Below are positions 33,965-48,828 of a DNA stretch of 63,996 bases, piece after piece. The stretch's first letter is position 1; each line of letters starts with the position of its first letter. A model generated the notes under the pieces. It saw nothing but the letters and a program-made list of their open reading frames with translations. It made no database searches and was not told where the DNA came from. The DNA lies in the NCBI RefSeq assembly GCF_001583495.1, contig NZ_LQAQ01000038.1:1-63996 (forward strand). The letters run 5' to 3'. The translations under genes were made by a program, and so were the position numbers. Source of the DNA: Flammeovirga sp. SJP92. Lineage in GTDB: Bacteria > Bacteroidota > Bacteroidia > Cytophagales > Flammeovirgaceae.

Positions 33965-35293
33965 TTAATATTTTAATTGAAAATCTTTCACTCTCAATTC
34001 ACTTCCTACCCCACCTCTAAAATTGGCTCCATCAAAACTCGATGAATACACGACAATAATATGGGTGGGCTCTTGATCAGAAGAAGCAAATCCATGTTCG
34101 GGCATTCTTTCATTAGAAGAAGAAGGCATCATAAAAGGTGCTAAATCGTTATGATTTCCATAAAGGAAAGGAAGGTTGATATTCTCAAAAGCATCCATCT
34201 TTTCGTCTGATCTAAACCAAGCAGTCGCTAGACGGTAACGTTTTTCATCTTCACCAGTCCCTTCTCTCACTTGCAATAGAACATAGACATCGCATTGGTC
34301 CATATTTCCATTGTAAGGTGCTGGTATATACTGAATGTCTGTTTCAAAACTTTTAGGCTGATCTGTAAATGGGATGCCGAAATCTGTTCTCACATTAGTG
34401 AGTCCACTTCCTTGAATCTCACCCACAAAAAGTGAACCTGCTGCCACAACACCCAAAGCTGAAGTAGTTTTTAAAGTAGTGTATTCGTATTCCTCTTCCG
34501 AAGGTGACGGATACACAGTTCTTACTCCTGTTGGAATGATCAAATCTGCCGCTCCTACATCACCAGTTCTCCAAGGTGTCCCTTCAAAATCTTCACCGGG
34601 AATATAGAACTTTCTGCTGTTATTGGCTTCATTGGATTTTCGACCTCCATAATACCAAGTCATAAAATCTGAGTATAAAATTTGATCACCAATTCTTTCT
34701 GTTTCACCATCTTGGTAAGTCACATTGATGGTCCATTCAATCTCATCAAAAATAAAGACTACTCCCTCAGAAAAATCACGCACATCATACGGATAAGGAA
34801 CTACCGGTACATCTTCTGGAGCGTAATGAAACGTTTTAATGGTTAGGTTTTTAATATCTGCATTGTCTTCAATCACCACATCAATTGTATAATTACTTTG
34901 ATTAATGTCTGCGGAGATTTGCCCTTCGATTTCGAAATTATGGAATACAATATCAAAATCATCTTCAATAACCGAGACCGTCCATTCGTACTCTTGATAA
35001 GTTGAAATCACAAACTTCACATCTTCTGTATAATCTGTAACCTCGAAAGGGTCAGGTGTTATGGTCGCTTCTTCCGTCAATTCAATACCTGTAACATGCA
35101 GTGCTGAACGGTCTGTTCCATAAGGCACTCTTATTTCTACACTTTGATCCTCTTCTGAAATAATGGCATTGCCACTTTGTTCTTCCAGTTGAAAAGATAT
35201 GATTTTACCAAAAATATATGGAAATGGAATGTCATTTTTGATACAAGCACCCAGGCCTAAAGTAACCGTTAATAGTAATATAATTTTTTTCAT
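33965..35293 (-). CDS. PCMD-domain lipoprotein
   Basis: 442 residues with lipobox GLGA-C (Cys17). Two or three repeated segments of about 75 residues (residues 30-205) each carry a VEIRVPYGTDRSALHVTGIEL-like strand and end in a W-T-V/I strand (YEWTVSV, IEWTINV). The C-terminal half is a PCMD domain (putative carbohydrate metabolism): FYIPGEDFEGTPWRTGD, then ALGVVAAGSLFVGEI and a final THIIVVYSSSFDGANFRGGVGSELRVKDFQLKY. Such lipoproteins are common in Bacteroidota and are thought to face surface glycans, but no enzyme activity is established. It is last in the four-gene operon whose leader carries four GTTTC-N8-GAAAC palindromes. Confidence 0.8.
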   Translation of the reverse strand: MKKIILLLTVTLGLGACIKNDIPFPYIFGKIISFQLEEQSGNAIISEEDQSVEIRVPYGTDRSALHVTGIELTEEATITPDPFEVTDYTEDVKFVISTYQEYEWTVSVIEDDFDIVFHNFEIEGQISADINQSNYTIDVVIEDNADIKNLTIKTFHYAPEDVPVVPYPYDVRDFSEGVVFIFDEIEWTINVTYQDGETERIGDQILYSDFMTWYYGGRKSNEANNSRKFYIPGEDFEGTPWRTGDVGAADLIIPTGVRTVYPSPSEEEYEYTTLKTTSALGVVAAGSLFVGEIQGSGLTNVRTDFGIPFTDQPKSFETDIQYIPAPYNGNMDQCDVYVLLQVREGTGEDEKRYRLATAWFRSDEKMDAFENINLPFLYGNHNDLAPFMMPSSSNERMPEHGFASSDQEPTHIIVVYSSSFDGANFRGGVGSELRVKDFQLKY

Positions 35294-35297
35294 GTGT

Positions 35298-36053
35298 TTA
35301 GATAAATAAAGTTAGACCAATGTTTAAAGAGAAAATGTCCAAGTCGAAGTTGGCACTGCTCGTCGTTCTAGAACCCGTATTGACTTGATTTTCGACCTGT
35401 TCAGTATTCTTAAAATTGAAGCCGATTACATCCATTTTTACTTCTAAGGCAAGGTTGTTATTGATGAAAGCCACCATACCTGGAGAAATTCCAATATTCA
35501 ACTCGTGCAAAGTAGAGTGAACACCCACAATATCATGGGGACCGTTTTCCATATTCAGACTTTTAGATTGCCCATAACCATAAGATAAACTCACTTCATT
35601 GAACAGCCCAAATCGGTTTCCTTTTCCTAAACTGATATAATTTCTCATAAAGAATGTAGTGTACACCATATGGGAAACATCACTCATTCCTTCTATTGAT
35701 AAGTTAATATCATCTCCAAGGTCCAATTGTAAATTATCGATGCTTAACCCTTTTCTAGCATAGGTCACACGCCCACCTATAGCTAAGTCGTCCTTTACAA
35801 AATAGCCAAAGAATGGACTTATTCTTAAATTATAACCGCTTCCATCCCATTCATTCAAAACCAAAAATTGGTAATCGTCATTGAAATGCTGAGAGTAATT
35901 GAAGGAGGCTCCGACCATCCATTGTCCTTTTGGTATGAAGGTCCTATTTGTGATACCTCGGTCATAAGCGGGTTCCTTATCTTTCGTTTCAGCGTAAGAG
36001 AGCAGTGTCAATAATAACATTAATGACGATAGATAAATTGATTTAAGTTTCAT
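35298..36053 (-). CDS. Outer-membrane beta-barrel-like protein
   Basis: 251 residues with signal peptide 1-21 (LLSYA). The mature part alternates amphipathic strands with Gly/Tyr/Asn turns (WMVGASFNYSQHF, NLRISPFFGYFVKDDLAIGGRVTYAR, GLFNEVSLSYGYGQS) and ends in a strand with a terminal aromatic-hydrophobic pattern (LNIGLTLFI), consistent with a small outer-membrane barrel. The family is not recognised. It lies 4 bp upstream of the PCMD lipoprotein gene and 12 bp after the preceding gene. Confidence 0.65.
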   Translation of the reverse strand: MKLKSIYLSSLMLLLTLLSYAETKDKEPAYDRGITNRTFIPKGQWMVGASFNYSQHFNDDYQFLVLNEWDGSGYNLRISPFFGYFVKDDLAIGGRVTYARKGLSIDNLQLDLGDDINLSIEGMSDVSHMVYTTFFMRNYISLGKGNRFGLFNEVSLSYGYGQSKSLNMENGPHDIVGVHSTLHELNIGISPGMVAFINNNLALEVKMDVIGFNFKNTEQVENQVNTGSRTTSSANFDLDIFSLNIGLTLFI

Positions 36054-36065
36054 GATTTTTGATAT

Positions 36066-36620
36066 TTAGATTGTAGCTTTTTCTTTAAAATATTTGATTT
36101 GTTCTTTGTGATAGGATTTCAATTTCTTCCATTCTTTTCCTTTAAGACAGTATTGATAATCCACTTTTTTTAACCTGTTAACGGCCTGCACCAGTGGAAT
36201 TGGTGAGACAACTAATACCAATGGTGCCACTGTGGCCCCTACACATACAGCTCCTACTCCCAACACTTGAGAAAACCTGCCTCTTTTGTGTTTTTTGGTA
36301 TGATAATATTGTTTTGCCTCTTCTTTTAGAGGTTGAATTTTGGCATATTCCTCCATAAAATCAACGGTCTTGTTGTGTGTATTTACAGATTCATAGCGAA
36401 TAGATTCGATATTCTCTTTTTCGATGACATATAACTTTTTGTCACGCATATAGACAAAAGTTGATTCATCACTAAAACGTTTTCCTCTTTTCCACTCTTT
36501 CTTAGTGATGGAAACTACTTGTCCATCTTTTAGATGAAGATTGATATTGTCCATTTCAGTTGGAATAGATATAGCTGAAGCAATGGCTTGAATAACGATG
36601 ATTGACATAAGGATAGTCAT
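36066..36620 (-). CDS. Membrane-associated protein, unknown function
   Basis: 184 residues. An N-terminal hydrophobic segment (MTILMSIIVIQAIASAIS) acts as signal or anchor, followed by a strand-rich domain (LHLKDGQVVSITKKEWKRG, FVYMRDKKLYVIEKENIESIRYES) and a central hydrophobic stretch near 115-145. It ends in a very basic tail (LKGKEWKKLKSYHKEQIKYFKEKATI). It is the second member of operon A, 23 bp after the 63-residue secreted peptide gene. I do not recognise the family. Confidence 0.6.
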   Translation of the reverse strand: MTILMSIIVIQAIASAISIPTEMDNINLHLKDGQVVSITKKEWKRGKRFSDESTFVYMRDKKLYVIEKENIESIRYESVNTHNKTVDFMEEYAKIQPLKEEAKQYYHTKKHKRGRFSQVLGVGAVCVGATVAPLVLVVSPIPLVQAVNRLKKVDYQYCLKGKEWKKLKSYHKEQIKYFKEKATI

Positions 36621-36643: not shown

Positions 36644-36835
36644 TTAATCAACAGTGTCTCCGGTTTCGAAAAGTAATTCTATAAAAGACCTGTTATTTTC
36701 TAGATCTAAATTGTTTTCTAGTGTGTTCAACTCAATTGTCTCCTTTATAATCTGGAAACCCGCCTTGGTTTGTTCTTGTGCCATTAACAGAAGACTATAA
36801 GAAACAATAAAAACGATCAGTAGTATATTTTTCAT
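36644..36835 (-). CDS. 63-residue secreted peptide, leader gene of operon A
   Basis: A signal peptide (MKNILLIVFIVSYSLLLMAQ) is followed by a short acidic tail. The signal peptide is strikingly similar to that of the efflux outer-membrane factor at 44480-46813 (MKNLLLFIFIVCYSSVLMGQ), and the start codon lies 16 bp below a GTTTC-N8-GAAAC palindrome in both cases. The 5' regions of the two operons therefore appear to share one origin. The tail after QEQTKAG shows no domain. It may be a real secreted peptide or the shortened remnant of a longer gene. Confidence 0.6.
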   Translation of the reverse strand: MKNILLIVFIVSYSLLLMAQEQTKAGFQIIKETIELNTLENNLDLENNRSFIELLFETGDTVD

Positions 36836-36851
36836 AATTTAGATTGATTTA

Positions 36852-36869
36852 GTTTCCACAAAAGGAAAC
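36852..36869 (-). promoter_or_regulatory. GTTTC-N8-GAAAC palindrome, start-proximal (operon A)
   Basis: GTTTCC-ACAAAA-GGAAAC lies 16 bp upstream of the 63-residue peptide start. The same arrangement with the efflux factor gene is at 46832. Further upstream both have AATAAGTTTCT, a possible half-site. Confidence 0.75.
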
Positions 36870-36954
36870 AATTAAGCAATAAGTTTCTACCCCATGTATT
36901 TTAAAAACATGAGCAGATTAAGTTAAATGATAAAAAGGTTCACTGTTACTTCCG

Positions 36955-37038
36955 TTAACTTGTGATGGTTATCGATATCACCCAAGTAATTACTAACTGA
37001 ACGTAACGCTTTATTCGAAGTATAATTTCATTTTTCAT
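36955..37038 (-). CDS. 27-residue membrane micropeptide of operon A
   Basis: This short frame was found by translating the leader. It starts MKNEI, has KRY at 10-12 and then a hydrophobic stretch (YVQLVITWVISITITS), stopping with TAA. A homologous frame of exactly 27 codons (46965-47048) occupies the matching place in operon B, with identical first five residues and KRY at the same position. Each starts 18-19 bp below a GTTTC-N8-GAAAC palindrome. Equal length and shared residues in two diverged leaders support real translation. Role unknown: a small membrane partner (AcrZ-like in size class) or a leader peptide. Confidence 0.65.
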   Translation of the reverse strand: MKNEIILRIKRYVQLVITWVISITITS

Positions 37039-37056
37039 ATTATAATTTTCACAATA

Positions 37057-37074
37057 GTTTCCAATTAAGGAAAC
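37057..37074 (-). promoter_or_regulatory. GTTTC-N8-GAAAC palindrome upstream of micropeptide A
   Basis: GTTTCC-AATTAA-GGAAAC within the symmetric TAGTTTCC...GGAAACTA. It ends 18 bp before the micropeptide start. Confidence 0.75.
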
Positions 37075-37176
37075 TAATTAGTTATAGCAATTGATTTTGT
37101 ATTATAATTTTCAGTAAAATAAATTTCAAAAATCTACCTTTTAATTCATCAAGATCATTTTAAATTAAACTTAAGT

Positions 37177-37194
37177 TTCTTAATAAGGAAACTA
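37177..37194 (-). promoter_or_regulatory. GTTTC-N8-GAAAC palindrome (operon A leader)
   Basis: GTTTCTTAATAAGGAAAC. It lies about 90 bp downstream of the promoter-proximal copy at 37298. No start codon of interest follows it. Confidence 0.7.
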
Positions 37195-37282
37195 AAAATT
37201 CAAATTTACACCAAATACTAGTTTCACTTCATCACAAAGGTTTAAATCTAATATTTGATTTCGTTGTTGTAACTTGACAATA

Positions 37283-37345
37283 CAAATATGGTACTTTGTT
37301 TCCTTAAATGGAAACTTAAATAAATTCATTAACAATAAAACTTTA
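37283..37345 (-). promoter_or_regulatory. Promoter module of operon A with GTTTC-N8-GAAAC operator
   Basis: The palindrome is 37298-37315. On the minus strand a -7-like box CATATTTG (37283-37290) follows exactly 7 bp below it, so GTTTC sits where a Bacteroidota -33 element is expected (20 bp from the box). The conserved TTTATTGTTAATGAATTT lies above. The same module occurs at 47723-47785 and 47971-48030. Binding here would block the promoter. Confidence 0.65.
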
Positions 37346-37474
37346 TTTTGCTTCAAAAAATACTTTCTGAGCGATATTTTTTGATTTACCTAAGCCAAAA
37401 AGCAATTCTATTGATAAGTCTTTTTTGGAAAGTTGGGAACTTCAGTCGATTTTGTATGATACACCTTATTACAC

Positions 37475-37832
37475 TGTAAACTAAGTGTTCGAATATTTAT
37501 GGTATTTAGAAATCTAGAGATTTCTGATGATCAGTGGGACACGAATGACACTTACGCTTAACATTCGCGCCAGTGGGCTTTCTACCCTTTTAGTTTGGTA
37601 GTACTCCCTTGGCCTTGAAGGGAAAAGCGTTAAGAATTTCATGGAATGAGCCGTTAAAAATGATTTTCTTGTTTGAGCAAAGCGAGTTTAAAATCATTGA
37701 GGCGAGTGGAATGGAATTTAGATTTTTTGCTTCGTTTTTCATCAATGGAAAATGAAGAAGAAGGAAGGTTGAAAGTAGGACCTTCAAAGCTTGTAGAAAT
37801 ATTGATTGCAAGTGTTCGAAATTTTACAGCAA
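37475..37832. repeat. MITE-like element, near-complete copy
   Basis: It starts TGTAAACTAAG at 37475 and runs through AGAAATCTAGAGATTTCT, GGACACGAATGAC, ACGCTTAACATTCGCGCCA and GGTAGTACTCC to the segment shared with 1-230. Its right end is diverged (AAATTTTACAG). It is non-coding, as the short frames inside are not conserved. It separates operon A from the gene at 38017. Confidence 0.75.
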
Positions 37833-38016
37833 ACAACTTAGACAAAGCATGGAATTCAATAATTAATCGAAATCATTTTCATAAATATTCTTAAAATATG
37901 ATTACTTTTGGTCATCATTTCTAACTAAGTTTACTGAGACACACTTCTGAAAAAATTCATCTATATTTTTTTATAAATGAAAATCACACTTTGGAGGTGT
38001 TCTATATTTTTATGTT

Positions 38017-40128
38017 ATGCGACTACTACTTTTTAGATTACTTATTGTTTTACTTTTTAGTATCACAACGTCTGCCTATTCTCAAACCGCTGTAGGAATA
38101 AAAACAGACATCAACGGACTACCTCTCAATGGGAGGATTATGGATTTCAACTTTGCACCTCAAAAAAAGTTAATCCTAAAAACAGAAATTCAAGAATTTG
38201 CAAAAGGGAAAATCCACCTGAAAGAGGAAAAGGTATTATCTGGCTACATCAAAAACATCAACGGGAATTTCCACTTCAAGGAAAAAGTAGATGATATTGA
38301 GATAAAGGTAATCAGCGGAAGACAGATAGATTGTGTTATTGTGGGGCAAGACTCTACAAAAATTGTTTACAGTGCCTATGTAAAAGGAAAAATGACAAAA
38401 AGAAAGTATTCTATCCTTTCTAATATGAATTATGGTGATTTCACTTTTGGTGAGCAAATCGTCAATAAATCTGATGGTAAAGTGGAAGAGTTGTTTTTCT
38501 ATAAAGAAAAGAATGATAACTTTTGGTCTACCTATAACACAGCTGTTTTAGAAGATATTTTTGTCAGTGATTCCATCTACACCCCGATTGAACTCACATT
38601 ATTAAAGCAAAAAAATCGGAATTACACCAAAGGGATCATTACCTATAACAATGATAAAAAAGATACTGTATTCTATCATATCAGCAACAAAAAAATTGTA
38701 TATAAAAAACTGCTGACTTCAGAATTTGAAACGGAATTAATTCCTCAGAATTTTAAAGCATTAGCTTCTATTCAAGACTCTATTTTTACAGTGAAGTCAA
38801 TTGTTGAAAATGGGAAAGTGATTAGGAAACCTTTAGTTTTGGCGTACAAATACAAGGTAAATGACCTTCATGAATACGCTCAGAATATTGGCGTAGTGCG
38901 TCCTCAAAATTATATTTTCAACAAAAGGCTCGGATTGTGGGAGGCAGTAGAGCAGTATGAAAAGGTAGATGAATATACTACGTTCTCTTATCACACAAGA
39001 TCCACTTTTTGGAGCCGAATGATTAAAAGCCTGATGACCTACCAATTAGAAGACAGGGCAATCACAAATAATGAAGCAGATACTTTTCATGGGCAATTAA
39101 GCACTTTTGAATTGAGAAATAATAGAAATTTGCTCACGGCAAATAAGGTCCATCGCTTTTTCAAACTAAAAAGGTACTATGATAGTTACAGGAATAACCA
39201 ACCGTTTTATTTTACAAAAACTTGGCACCCAACTTCTGAAAAGACCAACTACAAGGGGTTAGTCACCACATTCAACGACCGTTATTTCACAATCACTTAT
39301 TATCAAAATAATAATAAAATAGCGGAGATCAATTACGGTGCGTCTTTAGATCAACTCTATACCAAAACTCGAACTTCATCTTTTTATGCCAACAATCAGC
39401 TGATTGCCCAATATCAATATGATTTGAGAGGAAACGTAATGCGTTATAATGTATTTTACCCTGGTACAAATACAGTTTTCTATAGCTACCATATTGTAGA
39501 AATGATGTTAGAACGATATCAGAAGAATTTTTATTATCCTACTTTTGATGCATTTAATGAGGCCAATGGAAATCCCATAAAGTTCGTCAATCAAAGGTTT
39601 GAACTCAAAGATCCTTATACTCAAAATAAAACCAGTGTTCAGTTCTCCTATGAGAAATTGATTTTCATGAGCCGAATGGAGAATAATCAACAGATTTATT
39701 CTTACACAGATCAAATTCAAGAATTAGATTTTTCTCCCATCCAAAAGATAATTGATAAGCATATCTCAGAAAATGTTCCTGCACTTCAGGAAAGTATTGA
39801 TCATAACTGTAATGGGCACTATTTTCTTTCAATGATTTTGGATGAGAAGGGTAAATTTGAAAAAATTGATATTATCGGTTCCGTCAACAAAGATGTAGAT
39901 CAAATGGTTGAAGAGTTGACTGCTATAATACAGAAGAAGGTAAGACTCACTCCTTATCTGATTCATCAAGAACCAGTAAAAGTTGAGCTTATTATTCCAT
40001 TAGTTACAGTACTTAAAAATAAGTATACACAACACAATTATAGTGTAGCAAGGCCTGACATGAATTATGTTTATGAACAAAAGGAACCGGCTGACCTCTC
40101 TGAATATATTGAATTTGAAGAGTTTTAA
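38017..40128 (+). CDS. Secreted protein with TonB-like C-terminal domain
   Basis: 703 residues with a signal peptide (about 1-23, TTSAYSQ). The long central part is beta-rich with toast-rack-like repeats (GNFHFKEKVDDIEIKV, YDLRGNVMRYNVFYPG) and is not a family I recognise. The last 100 residues look like a TonB C-terminal domain: NGHYFLSMILDEKGKFEKIDIIGSVNKDVDQMVEEL, then KKVRLTPYLIHQEPVKVELIIPL. It is a single-gene unit with its own terminator at 40134. Such large periplasmic proteins with a TonB-like end occur in Bacteroidota without known function. Confidence 0.7.
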   Translation: MRLLLFRLLIVLLFSITTSAYSQTAVGIKTDINGLPLNGRIMDFNFAPQKKLILKTEIQEFAKGKIHLKEEKVLSGYIKNINGNFHFKEKVDDIEIKVISGRQIDCVIVGQDSTKIVYSAYVKGKMTKRKYSILSNMNYGDFTFGEQIVNKSDGKVEELFFYKEKNDNFWSTYNTAVLEDIFVSDSIYTPIELTLLKQKNRNYTKGIITYNNDKKDTVFYHISNKKIVYKKLLTSEFETELIPQNFKALASIQDSIFTVKSIVENGKVIRKPLVLAYKYKVNDLHEYAQNIGVVRPQNYIFNKRLGLWEAVEQYEKVDEYTTFSYHTRSTFWSRMIKSLMTYQLEDRAITNNEADTFHGQLSTFELRNNRNLLTANKVHRFFKLKRYYDSYRNNQPFYFTKTWHPTSEKTNYKGLVTTFNDRYFTITYYQNNNKIAEINYGASLDQLYTKTRTSSFYANNQLIAQYQYDLRGNVMRYNVFYPGTNTVFYSYHIVEMMLERYQKNFYYPTFDAFNEANGNPIKFVNQRFELKDPYTQNKTSVQFSYEKLIFMSRMENNQQIYSYTDQIQELDFSPIQKIIDKHISENVPALQESIDHNCNGHYFLSMILDEKGKFEKIDIIGSVNKDVDQMVEELTAIIQKKVRLTPYLIHQEPVKVELIIPLVTVLKNKYTQHNYSVARPDMNYVYEQKEPADLSEYIEFEEF

Positions 40129-40133
40129 AATAA

Positions 40134-40163
40134 AAGAGGCACCCTAAAAATTAAGGTGCCTCT
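40134..40163 (+). terminator. Bidirectional hairpin terminator
   Basis: Perfect arms AGAGGCACC and GGTGCCTCT around CTAAAAATTAA lie 5 bp past the stop of the plus-strand gene and about 100 bp beyond the end of the converging RND permease gene. Confidence 0.75.
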
Positions 40164-40266
40164 ATGGATTAACATGTGTGATTAATTTTCACTCTTACTA
40201 CTATTTTTGGGGCGATCTATTACCTTATGGTTACATAATTTTCTTCTAGTAATGGCAATCTTTTTA

Positions 40267-43200
40267 TTACTTTACTTTAAATAAAATACTGTACAAAGCG
40301 GGAATAAAAATCAAGGTAATGATGGTTCCAAACATCAATCCGACCATGATGGTTACTGCCATTGGTTCCCAGATTGCTCCACCACCTAAGTACAATGGAA
40401 TAAGTCCTAATACAGTGGTGAAAGTGGCTAAGATAATGGGTCTGAATCGCTGCAGACACGCATCAATAACAGCTTGTAAAGGTGCTTTTTTCAACTCCTT
40501 TTCTTCTACTTCTATTCTCTCAATCAATACAATGGCATTGTTGATCACAATTCCTGCCAGTGATATAATCCCAAGGAAAGCCATAAATCCGAATGGAACT
40601 TGGAAAACCAACAAGCCGAGTACCATACCGATAACACCCAATGGAATGGTTAAAAGAATGATGGTCATTTTTCTGAAAGAGTTGAATTGCATCACCAATA
40701 GCATCACGATGATAAAAGCTGATAAGGGTAAGTAAACGAAAACGGCACCCATGTTTTCTGCACTTTCTTCAGCATCTCCTCCCAAAGAGTAAGAATATCC
40801 TGCTCCCCAGTTTTTTTGCTCTTGATCCAACCAAGGCTGAATAGCTGTCATGATGGTATTAGCGTTTCCATCTTCTGTCAGCTCACATTCTACCGTGATT
40901 GTACGCTTCAAATTCTCTCTTTTGATCTGTGTGTACTGCCACACCGGAACAATCTCCGCAACTTGATTCAATGGAACACTTTTTCCTGTGTTTTGGCTGT
41001 AAACATTGGCCGTTTTTAAAGCAGACAATGACAAATCAGAACTTTCAATACTCTGCAATAAAATTGGAATTGACTTCTCATCTTCTCTAAATTCACCCGT
41101 CTGAAAACCATCCAAAATTGTTTGTAATGACACGGCAATATCTTGATTGGTCATCCCTGCCGATTGTGCTTTACTTTGATCGATTTCAATCACAAACTTT
41201 TTACCTTTTGGTCCCCAATCGTCTTTTACGTTTTTAGTGCCTTCTACTTTCGATAACTCTGCTCTGATGCTTGTCGCAATTTGCTGTAATTGATCTGGAT
41301 TATTTCCTGAAACTTTGATTTCAATGGGTGCTCCACCACTTCCAGCTCCTAACAAACCTGCTTTTACGTCAGCATCATGGAAGTGTAAAAAGCTGTATTC
41401 GTCAATCTTTTTAATTAATGCATTATTGATCAATTGGTCTGAAGTGTTGACCAAAATGTGTGCATAATTGGCGTTCGGTTCATCTGCAGTATACCCTAAA
41501 TCATAAGACGAAGGACCTTCTCCAATAAATGAAGTCCACGATGTAATTCCTTCATTTCTATGATCATTGACCATTAATTCTTCTCTGAAAAAACCTTCCA
41601 ACTCTTGGATCACTTCTTGAGTAGATTCGATTCTTGAACCTTGCGGTAAATTGATATCAATCGTGATCATGTTTCTATCGCTATCAGGGAAGAATAATAC
41701 TTCCAATAAGCCAAAACCTAAAACCGAGGTCGCAAACATCACACAAACTCCTGCTACAACTGTTTTCTTGTATTTCAAAGAGATTAAAATCACTTGATGA
41801 TAACCCGATTTTAAAGCCTCAATCATACGGTCTAAAAACTTCTTTTTCTGCTCTCCGTTTGGTTTTACTTTCAAAAAGTACACACATAACAAGGAGATGA
41901 TACTCAATGAAATCAGCCATGAAGAAATCAATGCAATTGAAATAACAGAGAAGATGGGTCCCATAATGTCTCCCATGATTGACTCTGCCATATAGAAAGA
42001 TAAAAATGCTGCAGATGTAGTCAAAGTGGAGATTAATAAAGGATAAAATAATTCTTGTACGGAATCAATTGCCGCCTTTTTCACCTCAATTCCTTCTTCC
42101 ATTTTCACCATGATGGATTCCGCAACCACAATCCCATTGTCTACCATCATACCTAAAGCCATAATTAATGCCGCCAATGAAATTTGGTTGATACCTAAAT
42201 CGAATAAACCCATCACCATAAATGTGGCAATTGTCACCATTGGAATTAAACTGGCAATCACTAACCCTGTTCTTAGGCCTAAAAAGATCAACATCACGGC
42301 TAAAACAATCACTACAGACTGAATTAAATTGCCTTCAAAATCTGTTACTTTATGATCAATATAATGGTCCAAAGAAGACAATCTCAATACTTCCAAACCA
42401 ATTGGTAATTGCTCTTCGTACTCTGCTAAAACTTGATCTACTTCTTTTCCTAGGCTCAAAATATTTCTTCCTTCCTTTAATGAAATATGTAATGAAACAC
42501 CTTTCTTTCCATTGATTTTTACAATCTGTTTCTGCGGATAGATATAACCTTTTTCAATTGTTGCCACATCTGATAGTAAAATTACATTGCCGTTGTTTCC
42601 TACAGGAATCAGCATATTGCGAATGTCTTTTACATGATTAAAATTGCCGGAAGGTTCTAACACAATTCTCTCGTTTTGAACATTGATTTCACCACCTGTA
42701 TTCAAAATGTTCGTAGCACTGATCATTTGCTCCAAACTGCTTGAAGTCAATCCATAGGTTTTCAATTTTGCATTATCAAACTTGATAAATACTCTCTCTT
42801 CTTGCTCTCCATTGATCTCTACTTTGGCCGCATCTTCCAGACTGATCAAGTCATTTCTCAGTTGATCAGCATATTTTTTGACTTCAGCATAAGAGAAACC
42901 ATCACTTGTGATGCCGACAGCAATACCGAATACCTCGCCAATTCCATCATCTTGTAATTGTGGATGAACGTTGGAAGGAAGGTCTGACATACGGTCCAAT
43001 TTTCTTCTCAAACGATCCCAAACGTCTTGTAAATCTTCAGGTGTCACCTCCATTTTCAACTCTACTGTAACCACTGAAAGGCCTGTTCTTGAATCACTAG
43101 TTACTTTCTTCAGTTCTGGTAATTCTTGAGCTACTTTTTCAATTTTGTCCGTTACTAATTCCTCCACTCTATCTGGACTAGCCCCTGGAAAAGAAGCAAC

Positions 43201-43344
43201 AATTGTGGCTACTCTTACCGTAAATGGAGGCATACTGTCTCTTGATAAAGATTGGTAGAAGACGACTCCCATGATCATGACCACGGCTAAAATACTAAGA
43301 ACAATACGGTTCTTTTCGATGGAAAATTTTGCGAAGTTTATCAT
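40267..43344 (-). CDS. RND efflux transporter, inner-membrane permease (AcrB/MdtB type)
   Basis: 1025 residues, the full length of the family, with the usual two-fold layout: TM1 (VLSILAVVMIMGVVFY), a large periplasmic loop, a six-helix cluster near 330-530 and a second half repeating this to 1025. Conserved pieces are FPGASPDRVEELVTDKIE near the start, the proton-relay-type LGMMVDNGIVVAESI in TM4 and GIVINNAIVLIERIE in the second half. It works by proton-driven export through the adaptor and outer-membrane factor encoded just upstream. The substrate is unknown. It is third in operon B, 33 bp after the adaptor gene. Confidence 0.92.
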   Translation of the reverse strand: MINFAKFSIEKNRIVLSILAVVMIMGVVFYQSLSRDSMPPFTVRVATIVASFPGASPDRVEELVTDKIEKVAQELPELKKVTSDSRTGLSVVTVELKMEVTPEDLQDVWDRLRRKLDRMSDLPSNVHPQLQDDGIGEVFGIAVGITSDGFSYAEVKKYADQLRNDLISLEDAAKVEINGEQEERVFIKFDNAKLKTYGLTSSSLEQMISATNILNTGGEINVQNERIVLEPSGNFNHVKDIRNMLIPVGNNGNVILLSDVATIEKGYIYPQKQIVKINGKKGVSLHISLKEGRNILSLGKEVDQVLAEYEEQLPIGLEVLRLSSLDHYIDHKVTDFEGNLIQSVVIVLAVMLIFLGLRTGLVIASLIPMVTIATFMVMGLFDLGINQISLAALIMALGMMVDNGIVVAESIMVKMEEGIEVKKAAIDSVQELFYPLLISTLTTSAAFLSFYMAESIMGDIMGPIFSVISIALISSWLISLSIISLLCVYFLKVKPNGEQKKKFLDRMIEALKSGYHQVILISLKYKKTVVAGVCVMFATSVLGFGLLEVLFFPDSDRNMITIDINLPQGSRIESTQEVIQELEGFFREELMVNDHRNEGITSWTSFIGEGPSSYDLGYTADEPNANYAHILVNTSDQLINNALIKKIDEYSFLHFHDADVKAGLLGAGSGGAPIEIKVSGNNPDQLQQIATSIRAELSKVEGTKNVKDDWGPKGKKFVIEIDQSKAQSAGMTNQDIAVSLQTILDGFQTGEFREDEKSIPILLQSIESSDLSLSALKTANVYSQNTGKSVPLNQVAEIVPVWQYTQIKRENLKRTITVECELTEDGNANTIMTAIQPWLDQEQKNWGAGYSYSLGGDAEESAENMGAVFVYLPLSAFIIVMLLVMQFNSFRKMTIILLTIPLGVIGMVLGLLVFQVPFGFMAFLGIISLAGIVINNAIVLIERIEVEEKELKKAPLQAVIDACLQRFRPIILATFTTVLGLIPLYLGGGAIWEPMAVTIMVGLMFGTIITLIFIPALYSILFKVK

Positions 43345-43377
43345 TTTGATTGATGAATTATTGAGGTGAGAGAAAGA

Positions 43378-44457
43378 TTAAAGTTTTACGATTTGACCAT
43401 TGATCAGTGTATGCAGGCCGGCAGTCACAATCATCTGACCTTGTTCCACACCTTCATTGATAAGGATACCTTCGTCTGTCAATTCGCCTACTTTGATGTA
43501 TTGCTTTCCGATCACCCCTAATTCATCACTATGGTCTTCAATAGTGTAGACAAAGTTGCCGTGCTCGTCTTCACCAATAGCACTCAAAGGCAAAACAATA
43601 TTGTATTCAGAAGCTAAATCTCCCATGTCAAATTTCACTTCAGTCGCCATTCCTGGGTGGATAGAAGCAGTAGGGTTATTGATTCTAATTTTCACGGGGA
43701 AAGTAGCATTTTCCTGATTTAAAATAGGTGATACTTCTATCACTTCACCTTTTAGTTTTTGAGCAATTGACTTAAAGTTGAGAAACGCACCCATTCCATT
43801 TTTGACTTCATTGATAGTACTTTCCGACACTCCCACAATCACATTCATCTCGTTTCCTGCATTCAAGACCATTACTTTGTGGCCTGAACTTACCGTTTCA
43901 TTAATATTCGCATTGACCTCGGCCACCACTGCATCTTTTGGTGCATAAATGTATCCGTTGAGAATTTGTTGGTGATCGATAGCTAATTTTCTTTCTGCTG
44001 ATGTCAACTGATTGGAAGCATTTTCGAAAGTATTTTTCACCGTCTCGTACTTACTTAAAGTGTAATTGCCTTGTTCATATAATTTGCGTCCTCTCTCGTA
44101 TTCTGATTTGGCAGTGTACATTTCAGATTTTGCCGCTTTTAAAGACGCCAATGACTGCTCGTAAGAAAGTTGAGCTTGAATATTGTCTAATTGCATCAAT
44201 AATTCTCCCTTCTTCACCTTTTGTCCCACCTTCACTAATTTCTTTGTGATAATGCCATTATTTCTAAAACTCAACTCCATTTCTTGATCCGCAGAAGCTT
44301 TCCCGCTGTAGGTTGTATTATTGCTTAAAGTAGTATTCCCTACTTTTAAATAACGAACACTTCTATATGTTTCTTCTTTCTGATTTTCTTCTTTTTGACA
44401 AGCTGAATTGAAAATGAAAACAGCGAATAGCAAAGATAAAATTGTAGTATTTTTCAT
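43378..44457 (-). CDS. RND efflux periplasmic adaptor lipoprotein
   Basis: 359 residues from the ATG at 44455-44457, chosen because it begins a lipoprotein signal (MKNTTILSLLFAVFIFNSAC, Cys20); a longer frame to 44514 overlaps the upstream gene without signal character. The membrane-fusion-protein pattern is present: a lipoyl half-motif (LVKVGQKVKKGELLMQLDN), a helical hairpin (SYEQSLASLKAAKSEMYTAK...ERKLAID), the second lipoyl half (NGYIYAPKDAVVAEVNANINETVSSG) and a C-terminal barrel with HPGMATEVKF. It links permease and outer-membrane factor. Confidence 0.9.
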   Translation of the reverse strand: MKNTTILSLLFAVFIFNSACQKEENQKEETYRSVRYLKVGNTTLSNNTTYSGKASADQEMELSFRNNGIITKKLVKVGQKVKKGELLMQLDNIQAQLSYEQSLASLKAAKSEMYTAKSEYERGRKLYEQGNYTLSKYETVKNTFENASNQLTSAERKLAIDHQQILNGYIYAPKDAVVAEVNANINETVSSGHKVMVLNAGNEMNVIVGVSESTINEVKNGMGAFLNFKSIAQKLKGEVIEVSPILNQENATFPVKIRINNPTASIHPGMATEVKFDMGDLASEYNIVLPLSAIGEDEHGNFVYTIEDHSDELGVIGKQYIKVGELTDEGILINEGVEQGQMIVTAGLHTLINGQIVKL

Positions 44458-44479
44458 GATTTTGATTGATATAGGATGA

Positions 44480-46813
44480 TTAATTATTTTGGATAAATTG
44501 TGTAGCACGAGCATAAAAGGCTTGGTTGTTTTCTTCTGAGTTTAATAGAAAATAGTAACCGATCGCTCTTTGGATTTGAAGTGATACCATAAAGTAGTTG
44601 TATTGTGCAGTGATAAATGCCAACTCATTTTCTAAAAGATTATTTTGAGCGTCTATCAGCTGAATCACTGGAATAATGCCGTTAGCGTATTCACTCTGAG
44701 AGATTTTTAAGTTCTCTTCTGCCACTACCTTGTTGGCTTTTGAGATTTCGATATTGGTCAATTCATTAATCAAAGCAATGATATTGTCATAGACCATTCT
44801 TTCCATGTCCTGCTCAAAATCATTTTTCTGAACAGTCAGCTTTTCCATCTGAATTTTTGATTTTTGCTGGTTGATGTTTCTTGTATTTTGTTGGAAGATT
44901 GGAATAGAAACATTCAAACCTACATTGTAATTGTTCAATGGAACATTTGGAAAGCCCACCGGCATTGTTGTACCCGCTCCTTCTCTTAATAAAAACTGAT
45001 TGTATTGTCCTTGTAAAGCGACTGTTGGAATAAAGCGACCATTTTTATTCAACTTATAGTTCCTCTCGACAGATTCTTTGTTGTAATGCAAACTCATCAA
45101 TTCAGGAGAGTTGGTCAACGCCTCTTGAATCAAGAACTCCGTCAATAAAAAGCGTTCATTGGGCTGATCCAACAGTTCAATTAATTGTTCATACGCTTCA
45201 TTTTGTTCTTGAACTCCAAGCAGTAAGCTGTCTTCCAAAACCAGACGTTCGTCCATTGGCAGGTTCAATAATTTATTCAATGCTAGATGCGATTGAGCAA
45301 CTGTATTTTTGGCCTCAATCATACCTTGCGTATTTTGAGCCAATTGGCTTTGGAATCTTAATACATCAGATTTTCCTCCCACTCCCATTTGAAGATTTTC
45401 TTCTGCCAATTTCAAATTTTCTTTGGTTAGCTGGAGGTTTTTCAATTGAATACTTTTGTTCGCTTCATAGATTAAAGTGTTGTAATAAGCCATCCCAACT
45501 TCCAATACTTGGTCCAATTCTAAAGCATTAAAATCTTCTCTCTGAGCTTCTAATGATAGTTGGGCCATTTTAATATTTGCTGAAGCATCCGCCGAGTAAA
45601 TAGTCTGTTTCAATTGTACATTTCCTGTCATACTATACTCAGGGTTCTGACCGAAAGACAACTCTGCCATCTCCGCATTCACATAAGTACCACCTGCATT
45701 TACACCCACTTCTGGCAAGTAATTCGACTTCGACAATCGAACTTCTTGACCTTTAATGTCAATGGATTTTCGCTCAACTTGCAACGCTAAGTTTTGATGA
45801 AGCATGATGTTCATTAAGCTTTTTAATGAGAAGCGGTGCTCTTCACCTTTGAAGTTCGATTGCATGTAGTTGTACTTTACGATTTCGCTATTCTTAAAAT
45901 TCATACCCACATACTCCGCTATATCAAGGTTGATTGTCATTCCATTTTCATAATCAATTTCTATCGGTAATTCTGATAAGTTTTGACCTCTCGTTACCGC
46001 TTCAATCGTCAATGCTATTCTTCTAAAAATCTGATCAAAATTGATATTTGGTTGATTGGTGGCCATCACACCCAACTCTAAATCTCTAACTCCGTACCCC
46101 GATAAAGATGGAAGTTGTAACTCGTTCACTTGATTGATGATCTTTTGGTAATCCTCTTCTCCTAACTGGGAAGTACTGCTAAAATAAACCGCATCTACCC
46201 CTGCTGGAATTTCTAAAGATGATGTCGTTTCATGAATTGGAATTAATGTATATTCCGCATCCATTTCAGCGAAAACTTCATCCAATTTTTGTTCTATTGG
46301 AAAAGATGTAATAAGATAATCATCCACTACAACTCCCAAGTTCTTATAATTAGCTAACGAATAGAATGACTCTACATCACCTTTCATTGAGAAAGGAGTA
46401 ATAAAGTAAGTAAAGTTATCAATGCCTGAAGTTTCATTTTGGCTAGATAATTCTACAAAATCCTGATTGACAAAACCTGCCAAGATCGTTGGAATTTCAA
46501 ACGTAATGTTCTCTTCATAAAACATCAACGCATTGGTAGGACCAAAAGCGATAATCATATCACAATCCTCGGCTATAAGGCTATCATATTGCGTTTTTGC
46601 AAGCGATGGATCATAACTATTAAAAACTGCTTCAGTAAATACAACATGATATTGATGTCCTAAAAGCGACAGAATTTCATCTTTCATAGTCATACCCAAA
46701 GCATCTGACTGTAAAGATTCTTTTTCGGCTAAAACGCCAATTTTGATTTGGTCTTGCCCCATTAAAACGGAACTGTAGCAAACAATAAAAATGAATAGTA
46801 GTAAATTTTTCAT
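44480..46813 (-). CDS. TolC-type outer-membrane factor fused to an N-terminal ABC substrate-binding-like domain
   Basis: 777 residues; ordinary TolC-type factors have about 420-500. After a signal peptide (MKNLLLFIFIVCYSSVLMGQ) comes a periplasmic-binding-protein-like domain (about 22-310): IKIGVLAEKESLQ, CDMIIAFGPTNALMFYEE, IPTILAGFVNQDFVE, NLGVVVDDYLI, VDAVYFSSTSQLGEE. It looks like the ABC_sub_bind family that binds small ligands such as aromatic amino acids. The outer-membrane factor part (about 330-770) has paired coiled-coil hairpins (SIQLKNLQLTKENLKLAEENLQMGVGGKSDVLRFQSQLAQ). It is the first large gene of operon B, with adaptor and permease following. The fused domain may sense or deliver cargo (inference). 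Confidence 0.85.
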   Translation of the reverse strand: MKNLLLFIFIVCYSSVLMGQDQIKIGVLAEKESLQSDALGMTMKDEILSLLGHQYHVVFTEAVFNSYDPSLAKTQYDSLIAEDCDMIIAFGPTNALMFYEENITFEIPTILAGFVNQDFVELSSQNETSGIDNFTYFITPFSMKGDVESFYSLANYKNLGVVVDDYLITSFPIEQKLDEVFAEMDAEYTLIPIHETTSSLEIPAGVDAVYFSSTSQLGEEDYQKIINQVNELQLPSLSGYGVRDLELGVMATNQPNINFDQIFRRIALTIEAVTRGQNLSELPIEIDYENGMTINLDIAEYVGMNFKNSEIVKYNYMQSNFKGEEHRFSLKSLMNIMLHQNLALQVERKSIDIKGQEVRLSKSNYLPEVGVNAGGTYVNAEMAELSFGQNPEYSMTGNVQLKQTIYSADASANIKMAQLSLEAQREDFNALELDQVLEVGMAYYNTLIYEANKSIQLKNLQLTKENLKLAEENLQMGVGGKSDVLRFQSQLAQNTQGMIEAKNTVAQSHLALNKLLNLPMDERLVLEDSLLLGVQEQNEAYEQLIELLDQPNERFLLTEFLIQEALTNSPELMSLHYNKESVERNYKLNKNGRFIPTVALQGQYNQFLLREGAGTTMPVGFPNVPLNNYNVGLNVSIPIFQQNTRNINQQKSKIQMEKLTVQKNDFEQDMERMVYDNIIALINELTNIEISKANKVVAEENLKISQSEYANGIIPVIQLIDAQNNLLENELAFITAQYNYFMVSLQIQRAIGYYFLLNSEENNQAFYARATQFIQNN

Positions 46814-46831
46814 GATAGAGATTAATATTAA

Positions 46832-46849
46832 GTTTCCATGAAAGGAAAC
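46832..46849 (-). promoter_or_regulatory. GTTTC-N8-GAAAC palindrome, start-proximal (operon B)
   Basis: GTTTCC-ATGAAA-GGAAAC lies 18 bp upstream of the outer-membrane factor start codon, in the same position as the 36852 copy in operon A. Confidence 0.75.
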
Positions 46850-46964
46850 TAAAAGGCAATAAGTTTCTGCTTCATGTCTTGTTAGACAAAAAGGAGGTTA
46901 AAAGAATTAAGTTTTTATTTTTACATCACAAGTATTCACCGAAAGGCGACACTGGAATAAGTTT

Positions 46965-47048
46965 CTAAATAGTAATGATCACAGCTACAATGGAAATAAG
47001 TGCCAATGGAATGTAGCGTTTTACCCAAAATAGAATTTCATTTTTCAT
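46965..47048 (-). CDS. 27-residue membrane micropeptide of operon B
   Basis: It begins MKNEI, has KRY at 10-12 and then a long hydrophobic stretch (YIPLALISIVAVIITI), stopping with TAG. It is homologous over its full length to the 27-codon frame at 36955-37038. It lies between the regulator gene (ends 47128) and the efflux genes, starting 19 bp below a GTTTC-N8-GAAAC palindrome. A single-span peptide beside an RND pump invites comparison in size and place with AcrZ, but there is no sequence similarity to claim. Confidence 0.68.
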   Translation of the reverse strand: MKNEILFWVKRYIPLALISIVAVIITI

Positions 47049-47067
47049 ATTGTAAATGTTTTATTTA

Positions 47068-47085
47068 GTTTCCTTTTAAAGAAAC
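47068..47085 (-). promoter_or_regulatory. GTTTC-N8-GAAAC palindrome upstream of micropeptide B
   Basis: GTTTCCTTTTAAAGAAAC within TTTAGTTTCC. It lies between the regulator's stop codon (47128) and the micropeptide start (47048). Confidence 0.72.
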
Positions 47086-47127
47086 CAAAAAGATACAGAA
47101 ATTGATTAATAGTGGTATAGAAAAATA

Positions 47128-47577
47128 TTATTTTTTATTATGCTTATCGTTGAGTTTTAGCAAAGAAGTAATAACATCTGAATTAAAATGAATGATTCTA
47201 TTGATCAAATCATCAATCTCTTTATCACTTTCTGAGGTTCTAAACTCACTTAACCTTCTGATTTGTGAATTTTGATCCATTAAGCCATTCACAACCAGCT
47301 TAATGTATTCTTCTAATCCATGAGCATCCAAATAAAACAAACGTTTACGTGAAGAAGCTGGATCTTGGATAAAATTTACTCTGCGAACAGCAATCAGTAT
47401 TTTAAGCATTTTACTTACTGCTCCTTTAGATGAATCAGCCAATTCAATAATATCTTCAAATGTCAGATATTTTTCATTTGAGATATAAAAAATACCGATA
47501 ATTCTTACAGCCAATGGTGGCAAACCATCTAGTTTATGCGCTTCCACAAATTCATCTAATACTACTTTCTTATCCAT
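47128..47577 (-). CDS. GbsR/MarR-type transcriptional regulator
   Basis: 149 residues, cytoplasmic. A winged-helix domain (about 18-95) has GLPPLAVRIIGIFYIS, LTFEDIIELADSSKGAVSKMLKIL as the helix-turn-helix with the Ser-Lys-Gly-x-Val-Ser recognition motif, and a wing with FIQDPASSRKRLFYLD, typical of GbsR-like members of the MarR superfamily. The C-terminal helices (about 96-149) would form the dimer. The gene has four GTTTC-N8-GAAAC palindromes upstream and operon B just downstream on the same strand. That makes it the likely binder of this palindrome and an autoregulated repressor of both operons (inference). GbsR regulators sense small ligands. Confidence 0.85.
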   Translation of the reverse strand: MDKKVVLDEFVEAHKLDGLPPLAVRIIGIFYISNEKYLTFEDIIELADSSKGAVSKMLKILIAVRRVNFIQDPASSRKRLFYLDAHGLEEYIKLVVNGLMDQNSQIRRLSEFRTSESDKEIDDLINRIIHFNSDVITSLLKLNDKHNKK

Positions 47578-47609
47578 TCTAATTTCTTTATTGATTTAAG
47601 GTTAAATTA

Positions 47610-47627
47610 GTTTCCAATTTCAGAAAC
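47610..47627 (-). promoter_or_regulatory. GTTTC-N8-GAAAC palindrome, start-proximal (regulator)
   Basis: GTTTCCAATTTCAGAAAC lies 32 bp upstream of the regulator start codon. Confidence 0.7.
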
Positions 47628-47722
47628 AAAAATAATACGATTAAATCACAATTTTAATTTTTATCTCCACTTTTTAATTCTTGAAATAAAAATTTCACTT
47701 CCGATGAAGTAACTTAACAATG

Positions 47723-47785
47723 CAAAGATGATAATTAGTTTCCTAATAAAGAAACTTAATAAAATTCATTAACATCTTTATTTCA
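47723..47785 (-). promoter_or_regulatory. Promoter module with GTTTC-N8-GAAAC operator (regulator, proximal)
   Basis: The palindrome is 47738-47755 and the minus-strand -7-like box CATCTTTG lies 7 bp below it (47723-47730), the same spacing as at 37283 and 47971. The flank above also resembles the other modules (AATTCATTAACA on the plus strand). Confidence 0.62.
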
Positions 47786-47944
47786 TAATTAAAAAAAATA
47801 CCAACTGCATTAACATGAAGAATCAATAAATGATACAACCTTCATAATCAACGTTATTTCCACTAATATTAAAACTAACTCAATATCAATTGATCATAAA
47901 CATTGCTATTTTTTTCAACTAAAATTAATATTTCAAATCTAATT

Positions 47945-47962
47945 GTTTCCTCTTTTAGAAAC
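47945..47962 (-). promoter_or_regulatory. GTTTC-N8-GAAAC palindrome, downstream of distal promoter
   Basis: GTTTCCTCTTTTAGAAAC. It lies 41 bp below the copy at 47986, roughly where transcription from the CATATTTG box should begin. Confidence 0.68.
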
Positions 47963-47970
47963 TGACAACA

Positions 47971-48030
47971 CAAATATGATATTTAGTTTCCTAAATTAGA
48001 AACTTCATTCATTTGTATTAACAATAAACA
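47971..48030 (-). promoter_or_regulatory. Promoter module with GTTTC-N8-GAAAC operator (regulator, distal)
   Basis: The palindrome is 47986-48003 (GTTTCCTAAATTAGAAAC), with CATATTTG on the minus strand 7 bp below (47971-47978). GACAACACAAATATG here matches GACAATACAAATATG at 37276-37290, so two promoters 10 kb apart are nearly identical. Confidence 0.65.
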
Positions 48031-48171: not shown

Positions 48172-48828
48172 ATGCAAAATCTAACAGAGGAAGAATTACA
48201 AGAACTTGAAAAACAACTCAGCTGTCCTGAAGGAGACAACGGAATCAATGTTGGCAATATCATGAATGAATCCAATATCAATATGACACTAAGTGGTATT
48301 GAGGCGATGGATATTCAAAATCAAGATAAAATACTAGAACTCGGTCATGGAAACTGCGGTCATCTATATAAAATTCTAGAGAAAGCAGAAAATGTAGAGT
48401 ATACAGGTTTAGAGATTTCTAAAACAATGTGGCAATATTGTAAGGAAAATTACACTGATACTACTGCTTCATTTTTGCTATACGAAGGGCAGACAATTCC
48501 TTTTGAAGAGAACCAATTTGACTTTGTATTGAGTGTCAATAATGTCTATTTCTGGGCTGAACCCTTTGCATTTATCAAAGAAATTGAAAAAGTGCTGAAA
48601 GTTGGGGGAAGTTGTATCATCAGTTTTGCTCAGAAAAGTTTTATGGAAAAACTACCTTTCGTAAGAGATAAATTCACATTGTATGATGATCAGGCTATTC
48701 GAAATTTAGTGGCTGATACGAATTTACAAGTCGAAAGTATTCAATCTTTTAGTGATATAGTCACTAGTAAATTAGGAGATAGTGTCAATAGACTTTATGG
48801 TGTAGCGGTATTGAAAAAGAAGGCATAA
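48172..48828 (+). CDS. Class I SAM-dependent methyltransferase
   Basis: 218 residues, soluble. The Rossmann-type methyltransferase motif I is KILELGHGNCGHL (about 56-68), with YTGLEISKTMW as the acidic motif II, FDFVLSVNNVYFWAEP as motif IV and VLKVGGSCIISFAQKS as motif VI. The N-terminus (LTEEELQELEKQLSCPEG) matches a subgroup of small-molecule methyltransferases of Bacteroidota. The substrate is unknown. It is divergent from the GbsR-type regulator, whose palindromes lie about 170 bp away, so shared control is possible but not shown. Confidence 0.82.
   Translation: MQNLTEEELQELEKQLSCPEGDNGINVGNIMNESNINMTLSGIEAMDIQNQDKILELGHGNCGHLYKILEKAENVEYTGLEISKTMWQYCKENYTDTTASFLLYEGQTIPFEENQFDFVLSVNNVYFWAEPFAFIKEIEKVLKVGGSCIISFAQKSFMEKLPFVRDKFTLYDDQAIRNLVADTNLQVESIQSFSDIVTSKLGDSVNRLYGVAVLKKKA

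Follow-up and report, generated by a model that had tools for sequence, protein, structure and literature searches.

What reads a palindrome that recurs, at constant spacing, in front of an efflux pump operon and of a second operon for surface proteins? The question is raised by a stretch of 63,996 bases from Flammeovirga sp. SJP92 (hereafter the window; contig C38 of an 8.49-Mb genome), where the 18-bp palindrome GTTTC-N8-GAAAC lies around a gene for a GbsR/MarR-type regulator and in the leaders of two operons, labeled A and B, the latter encoding a TolC-family protein, a periplasmic adaptor and an RND permease. A first-pass annotation of this DNA had proposed that this regulator recognizes the palindrome and that its own gene and both operons are under its control. 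Comparison of sequences supports that proposal, through conservation in the genus, co-occurrence at TolC-family loci and a match between recognition helix and operator across the family. I consider it very probable that the palindrome is the operator of the regulator encoded at 47128-47577, which would repress its own gene, the pump operon and operon A until a ligand releases it. The pairing is drawn from four observations: the sites travel with the regulator, their geometry is fixed, they occupy the regulator's own promoter in distant orders, and their inner bases follow the recognition helix.

The palindrome in the window, the genus and beyond

The window holds ten exact matches to GTTTC-N8-GAAAC, against a mean of 0.15 and a maximum of 2 in 100 dinucleotide-preserving shuffles. 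When the spacer was scanned from 0 to 30 bases, ten matches fell at 8 and a single one at 26, so the spacing is specific. The copies, each of which is listed without strand, are as follows.

36852..36869, no strand: leader-class operator copy, 16 bp ahead of the start codon (ATG) of a 63-amino acid open reading frame (ORF)
37057..37074, no strand: leader-class operator copy, 18 bp ahead of the start codon (ATG) of the 27-amino acid peptide of operon A
37175..37192, no strand: operator copy in the operon A leader, no class given (pattern match)
37298..37315, no strand: operator copy, promoter class, operon A (pattern match and promoter spacing)
46832..46849, no strand: leader-class operator copy, 18 bp ahead of the TolC-family start codon (ATG)
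47068..47085, no strand: leader-class operator copy, 19 bp ahead of the start codon (ATG) of the 27-amino acid peptide of operon B
47610..47627, no strand: operator copy, leader class, 32 bp before the regulator ATG
47738..47755, no strand: operator copy, promoter class, second predicted regulator promoter
47945..47962, no strand: operator copy, 41 bp downstream (in the gene direction) of the copy at 47986
47986..48003, no strand: operator copy, promoter class, first predicted regulator promoter

Four of these lie upstream of operon A, and six surround the regulator and operon B. Two of the six, at 47945 and 47986, fall in the gap that separates the regulator from a methyltransferase-like gene read divergently (48172-48828). 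The first-pass annotation was therefore right in its count, its constant spacing, its placement at the two operons and the regulator, and its statement that none occurs elsewhere in the window, where I found no other exact match. Nine of its positions were correct as well, the third copy starting at 37175 instead of 37177, and the identity that it claimed for the half-sites holds for their outer five bases only, the sixth being variable (C or T on the left, G or A on the right). Four copies with one mismatch are present in the window, all outside both clusters.

Random scatter over the genome, which the annotation had named as speaking against its proposal, was not seen: the stricter pattern GTTTCYN6RGAAAC has 13 matches in the whole genome against 3 for a control (the pattern read backwards), while the looser one has 19 against 13. 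Six of the nine loose-pattern matches outside the window fit the looser pattern only; the strict ones lie inside reading frames on contigs C93 (a frame that I take to be carA-like) and C92, and in what by eye is a terminator-like hairpin on C44. In an order-wide draw of 194 genomes, matches to the strict pattern number 357 in 185 of the 186 genomes outside Flammeovirga (control, 360) and 73 in the eight Flammeovirga members of the same draw (control, 24).

The regulator is present in all nine Flammeovirga genomes searched, 41-93% identical to that of the window. Each 3.4-kb regulator locus contains 4 to 6 exact sites, so that the comparison of sites and neighbours in related genomes suggested by the annotation gives clusters around the regulator in nine of nine. 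A pair of sites 40-41 bp apart is found upstream of the regulator in every one of these genomes; in F. pacifica a site stands at 224 bp, not just upstream.

Contigs were also scanned with an alignment of the TolC-family protein via two peptide patterns, and the best 80 of 108 relatives were retained, a sample that possibly leaves out the window's own genome. Adaptor and RND genes accompany the TolC-family gene at 79 of these 80 loci, the exception (L132) being cut by a contig end. The regulator is encoded at only ten, from four Flammeovirga and from Labilibacter, Carboxylicivirga, Saccharicrinis, Lutibacter, Dokdonia and UBA6049, with 35-41% identity in the six loci outside Flammeovirga. The strict palindrome occurs at eight of the ten regulator loci and at none of the 70 others, one of which (L140) has a weak regulator-like match (E-value 0.003). 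Because less than one strict match would be expected by chance in those 70 loci, their emptiness shows the background only. The core palindrome lies upstream of the regulator at nine of the ten loci, Dokdonia having one mismatch. In five of the six distant loci the TolC-family gene directly follows the regulator (in Dokdonia one gene intervenes), such that a single operator can serve the whole operon, and four loci of distant orders (L104, L105, L111 and L122) have a single copy, at the regulator promoter. By eye, TACTTTTG and TATATTTG come after the operator of Labilibacter and Lutibacter, and the Lutibacter operator fills the 19 bp between TTTG and the box that follows.

The regulator family and its dyad

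47128..47577, minus strand: regulator (REG), 149 amino acids, GbsR/MarR-type winged helix, from sequence and fold comparison

By sequence, the closest solved relative of the regulator is Mj223 (1ku9), with an E-value of 5.3e-4 from the single sequence and 6.9e-6 from a profile. The fold match to Mj223 covers nearly the whole chain, at 24% identity in the structural alignment, in a comparison with the PDB that re-ranks Foldseek matches only and excludes no family. The N-terminal winged helix-turn-helix and the helical dimerisation part of Mj223 are both found in the regulator, as is a sequence relationship to Mj223 and other GbsR proteins, and an orthologue (P0008) carries the NCBI name GbsR/MarR family. 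The CudC model matches three of 14 aligned members of the regulator family (best E-value 4.7e-7). The sole NCBIfam match of the window regulator is MsvR, at 26.6 for a cut-off of 220, and no model named GbsR is among the matches in the Pfam or NCBIfam libraries. According to the accessible text of a family survey, the aromatic cage for choline-type ligands of the osmostress branch is absent or dispensable in other GbsR branches (PMC6207618).

A related dyad is found at GbsR-family loci across the Bacteroidota. In a first distant sample of 37 loci (29 from a 395-genome sample of the phylum and eight from relatives), with shuffles that preserve single-base composition only, GTTC-N10-GAAC lies within 400 bp upstream at 27, at positions -36 to -93 (0.12 in shuffles, with a maximum of 1), and downstream at ten (0.15). 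The corresponding counts for GTTT-N10-AAAC are six upstream (0.54, maximum 4) and six downstream (0.45), and neither dyad occurs in the coding sequence of the 37 loci. A second sample of 55 loci, disjoint from the first, comprised 40 picked before their flanks were seen and 15 ready loci. Within 300 bp upstream, 14 of these have the GTTC dyad and nine the GTTT dyad; within 300 bp downstream, 20 have the GTTT dyad and one the GTTC dyad (flank shuffle means of 0.15 to 0.41). Dyads in their coding sequences number 0 and 3, for shuffle means of 0.31 and 0.59. With the window regulator and its 14 orthologues the two samples make 107 Bacteroidota loci, 87 of which possess the 18-bp dyad GTTY-N10-RAAC within about 320 bp.

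The inner letters of this dyad vary with the recognition helix of the neighbouring regulator, as seen in the pairs SKGAVSK and GTTTCC, SKGP and GTTTGA, SKSS and GTTCGG, SKSA and GTTCT, and SKGSISG and GTTCA. At half-site positions 4-5, the KGA-SK helix goes with TC at 13 of 14 loci (TT at the other), KSS with CG at 16 of 16 and KST with CG at three of three, KSA with CT at all eight, the KGS-SG/SA/SS helices with CA at all 12, and KAS with TA at all three; ten further dyad loci are spread over small helix groups. The mutual information between helix and letters is 2.30 bits, against a maximum of 0.77 in 2000 label shuffles (n = 87), a calculation in which shared ancestry is ignored.

At many loci of the SKSS and SKGS types (23 matches; L181-, L187-, L196- and L201-type loci) the GTTC-N10-GAAC dyad is accompanied by an extra half-site, 9 bp beyond it, which accounts for a peak of GTTC-N19-GAAC in the second sample (upstream of nine of 55 loci). 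I count this half-site as an additional feature and not as noise. In eight example loci, the next gene is TolC-like (SKSA), encodes a membrane-fusion protein (two SKSS), is LolA-like (two SKGS), or encodes a short-chain dehydrogenase (two SKGP) or a YceI protein (SKAS). GbsR types were also noted beside short-chain dehydrogenases (SKGP), LolA-like genes (SKGS) and YceI (SKAS) at loci L186, L247, L203, L218 and L264. A second GbsR-type regulator in the window's own genome (L047/L032, contig C59 of G000) has another adaptor, an RND gene and a TolC-like end as its neighbours. No exact dyad is present there; a near one is, with an extra half-site.

On balance I favour the view that Bacteroidota GbsR regulators share a GTTY-N10-RAAC operator whose inner letters are set by the helix, with an extra outer half-site in some types, such that targets could be predicted. 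Flammeovirga would then be the extreme case, its copies multiplied at promoters, at a point 41 bp further down and close ahead of start codons, and grading genes singly: the pump, the two 27-amino acid membrane peptides and the surface-protein set. The correspondence of helix and operator at 87 of 107 loci provides testable target predictions for many regulators of unassigned function.

Placement of the proposed operator and alternative readings

Promoters were predicted around the promoter-class copies. The consensus of the Bacteroidota -7 box is TAnnTTTG, and the TTTG motifs below are taken as part of it.

37283..37286, minus strand: TTTG in the -7 box predicted for the operon A promoter, 11 bp beyond the operator
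47723..47726, minus strand: TTTG in the -7 box predicted for the second regulator promoter, 11 bp beyond the operator
47971..47974, minus strand: TTTG in the -7 box predicted for the first regulator promoter, flanked by two operators
37328..37334, minus strand: TGTTAAT box upstream of the operon A operator
47768..47774, minus strand: TGTTAAT box upstream of the operator at 47738
48017..48023, minus strand: TGTTAAT box upstream of the operator at 47986

Among 68 exact sites from the fetched Flammeovirga regions, 24 have TGTTAA 13-14 bp upstream, and TTTG stands exactly 11 bp after the site in 21 of these 24 and in none of the 44 others. A promoter-class operator would sit between predicted -33 and -7 boxes, and operators lie at the regulator's predicted promoter and upstream of the pump genes, the arrangement of a local autorepressor. 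In 270 kb of other Flammeovirga DNA, the TGTTAA-TTTG spacings of the regulon (42 and 43) are seen once and never, and a spacing of 45 five times, the highest of 66 bins; TGTTAA may be a looser, general promoter box in this genus.

The leader copies are held at short distances from start codons: 13-18 bp before the TolC-family ATG in all eight Flammeovirga genomes having the gene, 15-16 bp before the gene resembling the 63-amino acid ORF (five of five), 16-18 bp before the operon A peptide (four of four), 15-19 bp before the operon B peptide (three of seven) and 26-32 bp before the regulator (four of nine). That they mark the starts of internal promoters was considered, from inspection by eye.

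In the proposed mechanism, a regulator dimer would read AGTTTCC half-sites through its recognition helix, SKGAVSK, and would repress its own gene and the TolC-membrane fusion protein (MFP)-RND pump operon. The surface proteins of operon A would be repressed from a second promoter. Release would come from a ligand, presumably a small molecule related to the pump substrate. In Flammeovirga the proposed operator has multiplied: promoter-class copies fall in the interval from the predicted -33 box to the predicted -7 box, one copy is found 41 bp further down, and others stand 13-19 bp ahead of a start codon. The promoter copies would block polymerase binding, their position between -33 and -7 being what suggests repression. 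The copy 41 bp downstream and the leader copies may add roadblocks, and the leader copies may alternatively occlude the start site.

Several results weigh against this account. At 20 of the 107 family loci no exact dyad lies within about 320 bp, and the KGP-SQ helix goes with TG at positions 4-5 in 16 of 21 loci, with TT in four and with CT in one. Saccharicrinis (L111) combines a TKGSVSK helix with GTTTC, an exception which implies that the code is not set by two residues alone and that the residue following the second serine plays a part too. Because related species share ancestry, their loci are less independent than the shuffle and Fisher figures suggest. The window regulator scores 20.2 bits against Pfam MarR_2, for which the curated cut-off is 27. 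In four of the seven genomes encoding the operon B peptide, its leader lacks an exact copy, and a spacing of 13-19 bp to start codons is tighter than a plain transcriptional operator requires.

Such fixed distances before the ATG, above all for the TolC-family gene (13-18 bp, 8/8) and the gene resembling the 63-amino acid ORF (15-16 bp, 5/5), would suit leader copies that act as mRNA hairpins setting translation or decay, the promoter copies alone being DNA operators. A palindrome hairpin is part of the predicted fold in four of five leader segments (-7.6 to -10.1 kcal/mol, with no shuffle control), but not in the regulator's own leader; the same letters recur at promoter copies upstream of the predicted -7 box, C stands opposite A in the transcript sense in ten of the 68 copies, and the distant loci L104, L105, L111 and L122 make do with one copy at the regulator promoter. 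I regard this alternative as unlikely, noting that the search pattern fixes the arms, so that missing compensatory change is no test of it. Activation instead of repression, for which MarR-type activators offer a precedent, is improbable given that the promoter copies overlap the predicted -33 to -7 region and that a further copy is found shortly after the predicted start, places at which polymerase is normally obstructed.

Another DNA-binding protein might read the palindrome in place of the local regulator, and the TGTTAAT box beside the Flammeovirga promoter copies means that other factors may act there. The presence and absence of the palindrome follow the regulator across orders, however, and the letters of the dyad change with the helix of the family member beside it, which leaves this reading with very little probability. 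Least credible, to the point of being negligible, is a dispersed repeat or functionless chance enrichment: the operon A and B leaders look related, and some copies were probably duplicated, but flanks differ among most copies, the spacing is fixed, and the site persists beside regulators of only 35-41% identity in other orders.

Gene content and known systems

Operon limits were deduced from gene order. On the minus strand, operon B runs from the regulator through a 27-amino acid peptide, the TolC-family protein and the adaptor to the RND permease, and operon A from a 27-amino acid peptide through the 63-amino acid ORF, a 184-amino acid protein and a possible barrel of 251 amino acids to a PCMD protein of 442.

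46965..47048, minus strand: 27-amino acid hydrophobic peptide of operon B, pooled ratio of nonsynonymous to synonymous polymorphism (pN/pS) 0.27
44480..46813, minus strand: TolC-family outer-membrane protein, 777 amino acids
43378..44514, minus strand: periplasmic adaptor (MFP), 378 amino acids
40267..43344, minus strand: RND permease, 1025 amino acids
36955..37038, minus strand: 27-amino acid hydrophobic peptide of operon A, pooled pN/pS 0.12
36644..36835, minus strand: 63-amino acid ORF, N-terminus resembling that of the TolC-family protein
36066..36620, minus strand: 184-amino acid protein, relatives in nine Flammeovirga only, among 38 genomes searched
35298..36053, minus strand: 251-amino acid possible outer-membrane barrel (OMP_b-brl_2, E-value 0.006, below its cut-off)
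33965..35293, minus strand: 442-amino acid PCMD-domain protein, probable lipoprotein (signal by eye)

TolC-family relatives align with the N-terminal 26-39 residues of the 63-amino acid ORF, and the leaders of the two operons are alike by eye; for these reasons the operon A leader probably arose by duplication. In genomes G002 and G007 the RND gene is followed immediately by the operon A genes, pointing to an ancestral link between the operons. G006 (L038) retains the regulator, sites, barrel and PCMD protein with no adjoining pump genes, its best TolC-family match being only 29% identical, and G001 (L033) retains the regulator and pump without close relatives of the operon A genes in their vicinity, its best PCMD relative (45% identical) being located elsewhere.

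The RND reading frame of G001 is split into two overlapping pieces. A paralogous TolC-adaptor-RND set (L083, L085 and L086; ∼28-47% identity) is present in G000, G001 and G006, and in the latter two adjoins a relative of the 184-amino acid protein. The TolC-family protein has an extra N-terminal region of ∼300 residues; four of 14 aligned relatives match ABC_sub_bind (PF04392) at an E-value of 0.01, and the window protein itself has no match to this domain. A possible small hairpin was seen at about 46860-46900 (minus strand) and at the equivalent place in operon A, upstream of the TolC-family gene and the 63-amino acid ORF, with arms that vary between operons and species while pairing is seemingly kept (by eye).

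The operon B peptide (27-28 amino acids), which probably spans the membrane once, is encoded in seven of the nine Flammeovirga genomes, and the operon A version in four. The pN/pS values, 0.27 from six operon B sequences (two of them identical, the 28-amino acid G002 version being excluded) and 0.12 from four operon A sequences, point to selection at the protein level on both. AcrZ beside AcrB offers a parallel for a small peptide at an RND pump, not a test. For the window, the correspondence of helix and operator defines a compact regulon and adds two conserved 27-amino acid hydrophobic peptides, one in each leader, beside an RND pump.

MepR, MarR and MexR are local repressors of efflux pumps that act at a palindromic operator. 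By analogy, the system described here would share with them a winged-helix regulator, linkage to a pump, a palindromic operator and presumed release by a ligand; these proteins match the regulator less well in sequence than Mj223, and the present system differs in having two operons and as many as ten copies of the operator.

Within the GbsR family, the accessible text of the 2018 survey reports no consistent regulated process from the gene neighbourhoods of its Bacteroidetes group (PMC6207618), and literature searches, mostly without subscription journals, found no published operator for this branch. Mj223 is an archaeal protein of GbsR-family fold, whose operator is called unknown in the accessible part of PMC7396694. 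CydE of Alishewanella is a GbsR-type repressor with two sites in its own promoter region, as proposed here (PMC6096048). By eye, its sites as given in the accessible text lack GTTY-N10-RAAC, and its target is cytochrome bd, with sulfate as inducer (PMC6096048). In Bacillus subtilis, GbsR and OpcR are dimeric MarR-type repressors of Mj223-like fold with A/T-rich inverted-repeat operators, traits that the system proposed here would share; their targets are compatible-solute genes instead of an RND pump (PMC7396694). As described there, GbsR acts as a roadblock downstream of the transcription start and the OpcR site overlaps the -35 region; both kinds of position appear to be combined in the Flammeovirga regulon.

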